A stretch of DNA of 64,000 nucleotides from contig NZ_CP114278.1 of assembly GCF_027105095.1 (NCBI RefSeq), positions 1,364,001-1,428,000 of the forward strand, read 5' to 3'. Source of the DNA: Brevundimonas vesicularis. Its GTDB lineage: Bacteria > Pseudomonadota > Alphaproteobacteria > Caulobacterales > Caulobacteraceae. A program made the position numbers and the translations under genes. Below, piece by piece: positions 31,732 through 44,251 of the stretch (its first letter is position 1; every line of letters begins with the position of its first letter). A model generated the notes under the pieces. It did not search any database and was not told the origin of the DNA. It saw only the letters and a list, made by a program, of their open reading frames with translations.

Positions 31732-32841
31732 ATGAAATCTCGCGCCGCCGTAGCCTTCGAGGCAGGCAAGCCGCTCGAAATCGTCGAGATCGATGTCGCA
31801 CCGCCCCAGAAAGGCGAAGTGCTCATCAAGGTCACGCATACCGGGGTATGCCACACCGACGCTTTCACGCTGTCCGGCAACGATCCGGAGGGCATTTTCC
31901 CGGTCGTTCTCGGTCACGAGGGCGCGGGCATCGTCGTCGAGGTCGGCGAGGGCGTCACCAGCGTCAAGCCGGGCGATCACGTCATTCCGCTCTACACCGC
32001 CGAGTGCGGCAAGTGCGAGTTCTGTCTGTCCGGCAAGACCAACCTGTGCGTCGCGGTCCGCGAAACGCAGGGCAAGGGCCTGATGCCTGATGGCACCACG
32101 CGCTTCTCCTACAACGGCCAGCCCCTCTATCACTACATGGGCTGCTCGACGTTCAGCGAATACACCGTCGTCGCCGAAGTCTCGCTCGCCAAGATCAACC
32201 CGGAAGCGAACCCCGAGCATGTCTGCCTTCTGGGCTGCGGCGTCACCACCGGCATCGGCGCGGTCCACAACACCGCCAAGGTGCAGCCGGGTGACTCGGT
32301 TGCCGTGTTCGGTCTGGGCGGCATCGGTCTCGCCGCGATCCAGGGCGCGCGTCAGGCCAAGGCAGGCCGCATCATCGCGATCGACACCAACCCGACGAAG
32401 TTCGAGCTGGCACGTCAGTTCGGCGCGACCGACTGCATCAACCCCAAGGACTATGACAAGCCGATCCAGCAAGTGCTGATCGAGATGACCGGATGGGGCA
32501 TCGACCACACGTTCGAGTGCATCGGCAACGTCCATGTCATGCGGGCCGCGCTGGAATCCGCGCATCGTGGCTGGGGCCAGTCGATCGTCATCGGCGTTGC
32601 CGGCGCGGGCCAGGAAATCTCCACCCGTCCGTTCCAGCTCGTCACGGGCCGCGTCTGGAAGGGGTCGGCCTTTGGCGGCGTCAAGGGGCGCACCCAGCTT
32701 CCCGGCATGGTCGAGGACGCCATGAAGGGCGAGATCGATCTGGCGCCCTTCGTCACCCACACCATGGGTCTCGATGAGATCAACGAGGCGTTCGACCTGA
32801 TGCACGAAGGCAAGTCGATCCGCACCGTGATCCACTACTGA
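31732..32841 (+). CDS. adhC: S-(hydroxymethyl)glutathione dehydrogenase (class III ADH)
   Basis: 369 residues, the length of FrmA/AdhC. Catalytic zinc ligands lie in [12 protein letters not shown] and [10 protein letters not shown]. The four-cysteine structural zinc loop is [17 protein letters not shown]. The NAD motif is [25 protein letters not shown] is typical of the class III C-terminal part. It oxidises the spontaneous glutathione-formaldehyde adduct to S-formylglutathione with NAD. First gene of the operon under the double FrmR-type operator, with fghA three genes on. Purine-rich GAGGGAAA precedes the ATG. Confidence 0.95.
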
Positions 32842-32893
32842 TCCGACAGATTACGCCGTTTAGTTTCAAACACTAACCTCAAGGAAGAATATC

Positions 32894-33292
32894 ATGGCTG
32901 ACCCCGTTATCTCCGGCAACGGCGTGTTCTCGCACGTCTTCATCGGCGCTGCCGACGTCGAGCAGTCGTCGGCGTTCTATGACGCCGCTCTGGGCGCCCT
33001 GGGCGTCAAGAACCTCGGCCCCTTCGGCAATGGCTGGGTGCTGTACGGTCGCGACAAGCCCGCCTTCATCATTGCCCGTCCCGGCAATGGCGAAGCGCCC
33101 TCCAGCAACGGCGTGACGGTTGGCTTTGCCGCCGCGACGCCCGCCGAAGTGGACGCTTTCCACGCGGCCGGCCTCGCGGCCGGTGGCACCGACGAGGGCC
33201 AGCCCGGCCCGCGTGGCCATCTGCCGGGTGCCTATGCGGCCTATCTGCGTGATCCGGCGGGCAACAAGGTCTGCTCGTACACCTTCATCTGA
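32894..33292 (+). CDS. VOC/glyoxalase-fold protein
   Basis: 132 residues of the vicinal-oxygen-chelate superfamily: VFSHVFIGAADVEQSSAFYDAALGALG at the start, then HLPGAYAAYLRDPAGNKVCSY at the end with the typical DPxGN motif. Metal ligand positions are plausible (His near residue 14 and the C-terminal acidic region), but the substrate is unknown. It lies 52 bp after adhC with AAGGAAG at its start. VOC proteins of this kind often sit in adhC-fghA operons and may act on glutathione adducts, which remains inference. Confidence 0.8.
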   Translation: MADPVISGNGVFSHVFIGAADVEQSSAFYDAALGALGVKNLGPFGNGWVLYGRDKPAFIIARPGNGEAPSSNGVTVGFAAATPAEVDAFHAAGLAAGGTDEGQPGPRGHLPGAYAAYLRDPAGNKVCSYTFI

Positions 33293-33439
33293 AGCCGGAA
33301 GGTGAGGGCGATACCCGCAACCCTATGACTGGCTGTCGCCGGCGCTGAAACAGGCGCCGGCGCTTCCCCCCGCACAACAGCCAGCAAAAGGGCTCCTATC
33401 GCCACACCGTCCACCAACCGTCGAAGCAAGGAAACAAAA

Positions 33440-42803: not shown

Positions 42804-43617
42804 CCTCCATCGCGAACTCGCCCCGATCTCAGACGCCGCCTGGGCACAGATCGAACAAGAGGCGACCCGAACCCTCAAGCGCTATCTGGCCGCGCGCCGC
42901 GTCGTGGACGTGCCGGACCCGAAGGGGGCTACGCTCGCGGCCGTGGGCACGGGCCACACCAAGCCGATCGATGCGCCGAGCGATGGCGTCCAGGCCGTGC
43001 GGCGTGCGGCCAATGCCGTAGTCGAACTGCGCGTGCCCTTCACGCTGACCCGCGCTGCGATCGACGATGTGGAGCGTGGCTCCGAAGATTCCGACTGGCA
43101 GCCGCTCAAGGAAGCTGCCCGCACGATCGCCTTTGCCGAAAATCGTGCGATCTTTGATGGCTATGCCGCTGCCGATATCGGCGGCATCCGTCCCGGCGCG
43201 AGCAACGAGCCGGTGCCGCTGCCCACGGCCGTCGCCGGATATCCCGCCATCGTCGCCCAAGCCGTCGACCGGTTGCGCCTTGCCGGGGTCGAGGGGCCTT
43301 ATCGACTGGTGCTGGGCGATGATCCGTTCACCGCGATCAGCGGCGGCAGCGAGGAGGGCTATCCGGTGCTCCAGCACATCAATCGTCTGGTGGATGGCGA
43401 TATCATCTGGGCGCCGGGCATCACGGGCGGCGTCGTCCTGACAACACGGGGCGGCGATTTCGAACTCGATCTCGGACAGGACTTGTCGATTGGCTATCTC
43501 AGCCACACCGCCGAGGTGGTTGAGCTGTACCTGCAAGAGAGCTTCACCTTCCGGCTGCTGACGAGCGAGGCGGCTGTTTCGCTCCCGACAGCGGAAGCGT
43601 CGGCGCAGCCGGCGTGA
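42796..43617 (+). CDS. encapsulin shell protein (family 1, linocin-like)
   Basis: 273 residues with an HK97-like fold signature. MNNLHRELAPISDAAWAQIEQEATRTLKRYLAARRVVDV is the family 1 N-terminal arm that binds cargo. RVPFTLTRAAIDDVERGSEDSDW and AFAENRAIFDGY form the P-domain. The end DLSIGYLSHTAEVVELYLQESFTFRLLT is typical. About 60 such subunits form a 24-nm shell. Translation is coupled to the DyP gene by an 8-bp overlap. Encapsulin genes are usually chromosomal. Here one is on what appears to be a plasmid island. Confidence 0.95.
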   Translation: MNNLHRELAPISDAAWAQIEQEATRTLKRYLAARRVVDVPDPKGATLAAVGTGHTKPIDAPSDGVQAVRRAANAVVELRVPFTLTRAAIDDVERGSEDSDWQPLKEAARTIAFAENRAIFDGYAAADIGGIRPGASNEPVPLPTAVAGYPAIVAQAVDRLRLAGVEGPYRLVLGDDPFTAISGGSEEGYPVLQHINRLVDGDIIWAPGITGGVVLTTRGGDFELDLGQDLSIGYLSHTAEVVELYLQESFTFRLLTSEAAVSLPTAEASAQPA

Positions 43618-43669
43618 AGGCGTTGCCGGTTGCGCCGCCCCCACGCGGGCCGCAGCGAGGGGTGGGACG

Positions 43670-44251
43670 ATGATAAGTCTCGTCGGTTGGCTCGCCACGA
43701 TCGCGACGATGATCGCGGCGATGATGACGGCTTCCAACCTGGGCGCGCGCGTGACGGGCTGGGGCTTCGTGGTGTTCAGCATCAGCTCGGTTTGCTGGAC
43801 CACATTGGGCTACGCCACAGGACAGACAGCCTTGGTTGCCACCAATGGATTCCTGATGCTGACGAACCTCGTCGGTATCTGGCGATGGTTGGGGCAGCAG
43901 ACCAAATATGAGGATGGCGGCCGATCGGCCGAAACAGCCAGCCAAAGATCCGATACGCCGAACCTGTTCACCGCGACCGGCCTGATCGGCATGGCGGTTG
44001 ATGACAAGAGCGGGATGAATCTGGGCCGGGTTGTCGAGGCCCTGATCGAATGTTCGACCGGCAGGATAAACTATGTGGTGATCTCGGACGAGCGATATGC
44101 CGGTCTTGAAGAGACATTGCGAGCGGTGCCGCTCGAATCCCTCAGGATCGGCTACACGCGCATGACGCTGTTGCTGGACGGCCCGAGCTTCCTGTCACAG
44201 CCCGGCCTCAAAAGTCGTGACTGGCCCGCCTTCGCTCCGATCAATCCCTAG
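43670..44251 (+). CDS. membrane protein with PRC-barrel domain
   Basis: 193 residues. Three short hydrophobic segments in the first 75 residues (VGWLATIATMIAAMM, GFVVFSISSVCWTTLGYA, GFLMLTNLVGIWRWLG) resemble a small YgjV-like membrane region. Residues about 95-185 are a PRC-barrel (LFTATGLIGMAVDDKSGMNLGRVVEAL). It is 52 bp after encapsulin and the last gene of the run. Function unknown. The stop at 44251 is followed directly by the convergent parE gene. Confidence 0.75.
   Translation: MISLVGWLATIATMIAAMMTASNLGARVTGWGFVVFSISSVCWTTLGYATGQTALVATNGFLMLTNLVGIWRWLGQQTKYEDGGRSAETASQRSDTPNLFTATGLIGMAVDDKSGMNLGRVVEALIECSTGRINYVVISDERYAGLEETLRAVPLESLRIGYTRMTLLLDGPSFLSQPGLKSRDWPAFAPINP

Follow-up and report, generated by a model that had tools for sequence, protein, structure and literature searches.

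A DyP-encapsulin pair within a run of formaldehyde genes

The stretch of Brevundimonas vesicularis DNA analysed here, which we call the window, comprises 64,000 nt (positions 1364001-1428000 within a single 3.12-Mb contig) and carries a DyP-type peroxidase gene and an encapsulin shell gene as a physical part of a run of formaldehyde genes. The run consists of ten + strand genes at 31732-44251: adhC, for S-(hydroxymethyl)glutathione dehydrogenase (31732-32841), a VOC/glyoxalase-family gene (32894-33292), fghA, for S-formylglutathione hydrolase (33440-34270), a type II NADH dehydrogenase gene (NDH-2; 34291-35625), a DUF3422 gene (35666-36940), a uvrB paralogue (37005-38972), a class II uvrA (UvrA2; 38995-41649), the DyP gene (41706-42803), the gene of a family 1 encapsulin shell protein (42796-43617) and that of a PRC-barrel protein (43670-44251). 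An earlier note on this DNA, made from the sequence alone, had described ten same-direction genes with small gaps or overlaps, and this description is confirmed, with neighbours spaced by -8 to 147 nt. The gaps measure 52 nt (adhC-VOC), 147 nt (VOC-fghA), 20 nt (fghA-NDH-2), 40 nt (NDH-2-DUF3422), 64 nt (DUF3422-uvrB, taking the uvrB ATG at 37005), 22 nt (uvrB-uvrA), 56 nt (uvrA-DyP) and 52 nt (encapsulin-PRC), while DyP and encapsulin overlap by 8 nt. AdhC, FghA and UvrB score above their NCBIfam cut-offs (740, 419 and 861 bits against 544, 282 and 743), as the shell protein does for encap_f1 (340 against 100) and the peroxidase for Dyp_perox_fam (285 against 100.5); NDH-2 (Pyr_redox_2 and NDH2_C), DUF3422, VOC/glyoxalase and PRC were assigned by Pfam matches.

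The earlier note had also credited the peroxidase with an encapsulin targeting peptide, and rightly so: its C-terminus, LDGSLRIGSLKDEAGHE, contains GSLRIGSLK followed by seven further residues to the C-terminal end, in agreement with the published DyP cargo consensus GSLxIGSLK (PMC10960027). By profile match the shell protein belongs to encapsulin family 1, the Linocin_M18 family, and the two proteins are nearest to structures of encapsulin-associated DyPs and of Klebsiella encapsulin. The peroxidase is thereby predicted to be packed into the shell by its targeting peptide. Among family 1 encapsulins those with DyP are the most numerous, accounting for 1,505 of 2,383 systems in a large survey that terms their function speculative (PMC8346489), and the closest studied encapsulated DyP favours hydrogen peroxide as oxidant (PMC12140327).

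The UvrA of the run is of class II. Its best-scoring solved relative is PDB 2vf7, which we take to be Deinococcus radiodurans UvrA2 and to which residues 17-343 and 385-885 align, whereas residues 140-291 of the 9ga5 chain, about 150 residues of a classical UvrA, have no counterpart in it. Those residues presumably hold the UvrB-binding domain, which on the evidence of this alignment is absent from the window's UvrA. The Deinococcus protein is likewise class II and without that domain, but the window's UvrA2 has a UvrB paralogue as its partner within a run of formaldehyde genes. This UvrB passes the NCBIfam UvrB cut-offs and retains the helicase and Pfam UvrB_inter regions, with no match to Pfam UVR (the C-terminal UvrC-binding region) at a limit of E 10, where the HMMER filters drop most matches above 0.1. 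It also lacks three residues near helicase motif Ia that are present in 10 of 10 relatives of intact length, a shortening that may impair the UvrB of this strain. The association with DNA repair, which the earlier note considered unexpected, has precedents: islands joining formaldehyde and Uvr genes on integrative and conjugative elements (ICEs) have been published (PMC7156236, PMC7466150), nucleotide excision repair is established for formaldehyde DNA-protein crosslinks with proteins below 12-14 kDa, and E. coli uvrA mutants are formaldehyde-sensitive (PMC6945406).

A predicted FrmR switch at the adhC promoter

Upstream of the run, at 28410-28700 on the + strand, lies a gene for an FrmR-type repressor, recognised by profile match and by its solved relatives, the best two of which are both FrmR proteins. 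The 96-aa product begins MPHSPEDKK, which provides Pro2 and Pro5, and carries Cys35. In Salmonella FrmR, Pro2 and Cys35 are required for formaldehyde sensing, and tight binding needs a T/A-rich inverted repeat in an operator that is bound by two tetramers (PMC5016687). The window protein has the Pro2/Cys35 pair of a formaldehyde-sensing FrmR, and a T/A-rich inverted repeat is present at the adhC promoter, where it is a predicted operator from sequence only, its bare pattern being unspecific across the class. We searched for boxes of the form ATACTN{6,7}AGTAT, with the reversed pattern as control, and found three in the window compared with 0 in 100 shuffles. One is at 28225-28241, 104 nt upstream of cydA, and two lie together at 31619-31658 (31619-31635 and 31643-31658), 97 and 74 nt upstream of adhC; a near match, one letter off, is found at 24589-24605, about 95 nt upstream of dksA. 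In the whole 3.12-Mb genome there are five box sites, all in two formaldehyde clusters, and 0 sites of the reversed control; the remaining two boxes are upstream of a second adhC-uvrA cluster at 2.672 Mb. There is no box in the window past 31658, nor beside any later gene of the run, DyP included, and from the sequence the adhC promoter would therefore be the only FrmR-controlled entry to the run. Among 13 loci scanned (L numbers designate the loci compared), boxes precede each of the nine adhC copies carried by eight alphaproteobacterial loci (the window, L001-L005, L097 and L105), as well as frmR-adhC in an Aeromonas island (L102).

Between adhC and the DyP-encapsulin pair there is no internal box and no T-run terminator in the gaps, but there is a strong hairpin between VOC and fghA. 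Counting both strands of 30000-46000, terminator-like sites number 12 against 9.3 +/- 2.8 in shuffles, and the T-run terminator scan of the same interval gave no + strand site within an operon gap. The VOC-fghA hairpin has its core at 33337-33362 (+ strand; z -4.4 for 33300-33445) and no T-run, and could possibly be an attenuator or a processing site. It is kept in both sphingomonad types of the island described below and was not seen in the Shinella version, though the gene order there is the same. That the earlier note noticed no terminator is right for T-run terminators, with this hairpin to be set beside it. Folding in the uvrA-DyP and encapsulin-PRC gaps is no stronger than in shuffles. 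The sigma-70 promoter scan was uninformative (4 sites against 2.9 expected, alphaproteobacterial promoters being outside its coverage), and the EcfG-type scan gave 2 sites, 0 of them in the operon. A further 16-pair hairpin at 31404-31439 (+ strand; z -4.5 for 31386-31450) separates adhC from the preceding gene, fdhA, which is for this reason best seen as its own unit; the hairpin possibly marks the end of the fdhA transcript.

Recurrence of the gene order and related systems

The uvrA-DyP-encapsulin-PRC order recurs in 13 records besides the window and so exceeds chance. In seven plasmid records 80% or more of 30000-46000 is present, and all seven match uvrB, uvrA, DyP, encapsulin and PRC by tBLASTn, three of them having been examined gene by gene; six genome contigs (L017-L021 and L042) hold VOC to PRC on flanks that stop short of adhC. 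The carriers are Sphingomonadales, a Methylobacterium and this Brevundimonas, one of them from tap water. Together with the window, the 14 records form two types, four at about 99% (the window, Sphingomonas sp. AAP5, S. hankookensis and L042) and ten at about 92%. The earlier note had tied the DyP-encapsulin pair to aldehyde-oxidation genes, a tie that stands as far as the gene run, the adhC boxes and the recurrence in 13 records go. It is not the case that the pair and these genes never occur together in homologous operons, since 13 other records have both, yet these represent only one mobile lineage.

To survey encapsulins more broadly we took the best 80 of 268 relatives, with flanks often of 10 kb on each side and sometimes less. 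In the 74 other loci of this set the encapsulin is 63-89% identical, and weak family hits occur to adhC (24%, L071) and fdhA (35%, L063). Hits of the uvrA type near encapsulin were found in L054, L064 and L076 (34-64%), and cydAB in L040 and L083. An NDH-2 gene, 62-65% identical to that of the operon, directly follows encapsulin in five loci (L035, L037, L038, L044 and L067; Bosea, Afipia). A tBLASTn search of L001-L096 with the Klebsiella formate dehydrogenase matched three loci outside enterobacteria (L025, L040 and L041), where an NAD-dependent formate dehydrogenase, 72-78% identical to that of Klebsiella, lies just upstream of DyP-encapsulin. When 94 of 279 immediate neighbours of other DyP-encapsulin loci, chosen by hand, were scanned, the commonest Pfam family was Pyr_redox_2 (5 of 94), with NDH2_C in 3 of 94; NCBIfam at E 1e-30 gave 2 NAD-dependent formate dehydrogenases and 2 FdhF/YdeP proteins among the 25 most frequent families. 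The nearest DyP-encapsulin pairs outside the operon are those of Brevundimonas nasdae JCM 11415 (L022; 89-90%, on a 9.9-kb contig) and Rhizobium lusitanum (83-84%). Encapsulin is present in 2 of 299 genomes of the window's own family and, at E <= 1e-60, in 11 of 385 genomes sampled from the class, the window genome being included in both counts. The other 10 class genomes gave 11 stretches, of which 0 carry formaldehyde or Uvr genes at threshold (three end at contig ends) and which contain one DyP match. As a separate observation, a class II-like UvrA hit of 64% lies at position 8838 of L064, a Bacteroidetes metagenome-assembled genome, on the other strand and about 3 kb past DyP-encapsulin.

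By tBLASTn, relatives of the UvrB, close and distant, occur in 188 plasmid records and relatives of the UvrA in 631, few of which were examined gene by gene. The islands examined hold parts of the set frmR, adhC, VOC, DUF3422, fghA, NDH-2, uvrB, uvrA and cydAB in varying order, and come from Shinella, Aeromonas, Comamonas (metal-working fluid), Enterobacter (uvrA and adhC by tBLASTn only), Acinetobacter, Phaeobacter and Pseudomonas. The UvrB paralogue (64-81%) accompanies formaldehyde genes in Shinella (L003), Aeromonas (L102), Comamonas (L110), Enterobacter (L111) and Acinetobacter (L112), and a shorter frmR-adhC-uvrA form is found in Sphingomonas naphthae, in Agrobacterium and as the second cluster of this genome. 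Of 5,426 complete E. coli genomes, 15 contain a place that covers at least 80% of the Aeromonas DUF3422-fghA-NDH-2 stretch, with roughly 68% identity. Among the stretches examined, DyP-encapsulin is limited to the sphingomonad type. The Aeromonas island carries a free DyP, 50% identical and without a targeting peptide, amid formaldehyde and Uvr genes; this type of DyP was found in one plasmid record at >=99%, the next best match being 69%.

Four described systems resemble the window in part. The enterobacterial frmRA operon shares with it a Pro2/Cys35 FrmR, a T/A-rich inverted-repeat operator and both S-(hydroxymethyl)glutathione dehydrogenase and S-formylglutathione hydrolase, whereas the window adds respiration, repair and nanocompartment genes and has boxes also at cydAB and dksA. 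The transposon-borne enterobacterial operon of formate dehydrogenase (FDH), DyP, encapsulin and RpoH likewise combines a DyP bearing a C-terminal targeting peptide with a family 1 encapsulin on mobile DNA, next to a C1-oxidising enzyme (PMC10960027, PMC12140327; L104), its encapsulin being about 69-70% identical. It differs in having formate dehydrogenase and RpoH in place of FrmR-boxed adhC, fghA, NDH-2 and UvrAB, and no FrmR-type box was found in L104, L106 and L107; in the window there is no FDH directly upstream and no RpoH downstream of DyP-encapsulin, and uvrA and PRC take those places. The mobile region VR4 of ICEPni1 in Pseudomonas nitroreducens HBP-1, described as a mosaic, unites a DyP with frmA, frmB, fdhA, uvrA and uvrB, in passages that make no mention of encapsulin (PMC7466150). 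Cluster C30 of hospital ICEs joins formaldehyde resistance and UvrABC genes on one mobile element, again in passages that mention neither peroxidase nor encapsulin (PMC7156236). Our literature search, judged by titles and passages, found no paper linking encapsulin to formaldehyde genes; neither 'formaldehyde' nor 'uvr' occurs in the main text of the large encapsulin survey (PMC8346489), nor 'formaldehyde' in the consulted text of the Klebsiella encapsulin paper (PMC10960027). As far as searched, then, an encapsulin within a predicted FrmR-controlled operon is new, while the literature already contains formaldehyde-Uvr islands, a DyP being named in one of them, and reports that formaldehyde crosslinks undergo excision repair.

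A putative formaldehyde-stress operon and the alternatives

With moderate confidence, we read the run as an island-borne formaldehyde-stress operon with an FrmR switch, in which the encapsulated DyP would serve as peroxide clean-up. The window would be a chromosomal copy of a mobile formaldehyde-stress island, in which FrmR would occupy the two adhC boxes and the single boxes near cydA and dksA until released on being crosslinked by formaldehyde. AdhC and FghA, whose established chemistry yields formate and NADH, would then convert formaldehyde, NDH-2 together with the co-regulated cytochrome bd oxidase would burn the NADH, UvrA2 and UvrB would work on formaldehyde DNA lesions, and the encapsulated DyP would consume hydrogen peroxide generated by the load on respiration and flavins. 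Such peroxide can be given off by NDH-2 enzymes and by rapid respiration. Given NADH burning, crosslink repair and the peroxide preference of DyP, the simplest joint reading is that burning, repair and peroxide clean-up would stand under one switch. The earlier note had proposed peroxide or lesion by-products of formaldehyde stress as the substrates; peroxide as a by-product handled by DyP is plausible, and nothing in this analysis pointed to lesion products as DyP substrates.

Several observations weigh against this reading. The gene order is probably the result of a single event, because the 14 records all belong to a single island that exists in two types, and the 74 other encapsulin loci of the best 80 of 268 show no fghA, DUF3422 or uvrB hits nearby. 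Nor was an encapsulin found in the examined stretches of the related islands L003/L118, L101, L102, L105, L110, L111 and L112. As to the switch, L101, L110, L111 and L112 lack a box at adhC, L111 having one beside frmR, and no box was found in L022-L096, L098, L104, L106, L107 and L109; the bare pattern is present in 227 of 385 class genomes with the reversed control about as common, and is therefore informative only in this GC-rich genome, with its G/C core. The VOC-fghA hairpin could reduce expression of the distal genes. Aligned with the window, the encapsulin gene of the S. hankookensis plasmid (L108) shows 7 gap positions, and it is missing from the genes annotated in that record, among which DyP and PRC do appear. 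Lastly, dS between the two island types is uneven, ranging from 0.02 for PRC up to 0.55 for NDH-2; recombination between the types has therefore occurred, and the dN/dS of single genes given below is rough.

A possible alternative, which we take seriously while doubting it, is that the pair is a cassette for oxidative stress in general, which landed between uvrA and PRC and is expressed by read-through, with no special tie to formaldehyde. In favour of such a passenger, the combination is confined to a single island lineage, the 74 other encapsulin loci examined do not share the operon, the Shinella version is without the cassette, and the encapsulin frame is disturbed in one plasmid record. 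There is also a possible insertion or duplication footprint: in the 92% type (L002, 19487-19570 and 21548-21631) a degenerate 84-nt direct repeat of the PRC gene start, 70% identical, flanks DyP-encapsulin, the extra copy sitting between uvrA and DyP, as though uvrA and a PRC gene had been parted by the arrival of DyP-encapsulin, or else a copy of PRC had decayed. This repeat was not seen in the window. Selection speaks the other way. Comparing the two island types, as one pair and by simple counting, DyP has a dN/dS of 0.050 and encapsulin one of 0.073, against 0-0.125 for the other eight operon genes and 0.225 for a LysR-family regulator gene upstream; with values in the range of the other operon genes, the pair is under purifying selection like the rest of the operon and does not resemble decaying cargo. 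The position of the cassette within the run is moreover kept in both types, and the associations with formate dehydrogenase and NDH-2, and that of a free DyP, recur elsewhere, each in a minority of loci.

It is unlikely, in our estimation, that the FrmR transcript stops or is processed at the VOC-fghA hairpin and that fghA to PRC are transcribed from another, unseen promoter in response to a different signal. The strength of the hairpin and its conservation in both sphingomonad types would suit such a division, as would a promoter scan that does not cover alphaproteobacterial promoters. The hairpin, however, has no T-run and was not seen in Shinella with the same local gene order, adhC and fghA encode consecutive steps of one pathway, and the window has no FrmR-type box after 31658. 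Least probable is a DyP acting on an organic substrate that arises when formaldehyde stresses the cell (a thiol or aromatic adduct might be one), and not chiefly on peroxide: native organic co-substrates have yet to be identified for DyP encapsulins (PMC12140327), and VOC and DUF3422, with roles unassigned, stand in the same run, but no sequence evidence in this analysis points that way and the closest studied enzyme, though compatible with a co-substrate, prefers hydrogen peroxide (PMC12140327).

Under the reading of a formaldehyde-stress operon, one may tentatively suggest that the native job of at least one DyP-encapsulin branch is to contain and spend hydrogen peroxide, or a formaldehyde-derived organic co-substrate, during fast formaldehyde burning. 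If this were true, the enterobacterial formate dehydrogenase-DyP-encapsulin operons would represent the formate end of the same C1-stress logic. A DyP-encapsulin pair behind a predicted, chemically specific switch comes with formaldehyde as its candidate inducer, a delimited set of partner genes and deletions that lend themselves to testing, and the locus therefore offers a concrete route to learning what DyP nanocompartments are for. It also shows a mobile formaldehyde-stress island bringing its own repair genes.

The surrounding island and chromosome

The part of the island preceding the run includes, on the - strand, a DksA/TraR-type C4 zinc finger protein gene (24231-24494; product name by position from plasmid p213 of AAP5), a bestrophin-family gene (24622-25518; Pfam Bestrophin_2) and cydB-cydA, for a cytochrome bd-type quinol oxidase (25702-28121; Pfam), with a DUF2474 gene also on that strand. 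On the + strand, FrmR is followed by the LysR-family regulator gene (29027-29947; profile match) and by fdhA (30179-31390), a homologue of glutathione-independent formaldehyde dehydrogenase that scores 423 bits, below the NCBIfam equivalog cut-off of 637; the fdhA genes of the plasmid relatives are annotated as glutathione-independent formaldehyde dehydrogenase too.

The S. hankookensis plasmid, from tap water, matches window positions 23391-45322 at 99.9-100% identity, and p213 of Sphingomonas sp. AAP5 is 98.9% identical to 30000-46000, so that the island has the look of a plasmid segment that entered the chromosome recently. That the window itself is a plasmid is ruled out by its position inside the single 3.12-Mb contig. 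Two copies of an IS6-family element (family name from the AAP5 annotation), at 8897-9788 and 46708-47599 on the + strand and identical over 892 nt, enclose 37.8 kb in direct orientation. An origin by one simple IS6 transposition was rejected, as the outer 8 bases fail to match.

Elsewhere in the genome there is a second class II UvrA, 91% identical to that of the island, and a longer UvrA-type gene with an open frame of 997 aa, which we take as the housekeeping UvrA. The second frmR-adhC-class II uvrA cluster, with two FrmR-type boxes, lies at 2664000-2682000 (L097).

The PRC protein is probably a membrane protein; its N-terminal region weakly resembles NMN_transporter, below the Pfam cut-off. 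It has 1,787 relatives, which among the 120 listed are not confined to encapsulin loci, and its use as a marker for such loci was rejected on that account. Relatives of the PRC protein at 77-98% (P0003-P0009) may represent additional lineages of the island. The few organism-named relatives among those 120 are all sphingomonads, and full-length relatives on plasmids come from sphingomonads and from the island-bearing Methylobacterium.

Three further features were read from translations. The IS6-bracketed 37.8 kb also carries open reading frames (ORFs) resembling DNA methyltransferases and a Tn3-type transposase; ORFs at 53152-57898 resemble phage tail sheath and tape-measure proteins, and this segment is probably a Mu-like prophage adjoining the island; and an ORF at 60275-62434 resembles a heavy-metal P-type ATPase.

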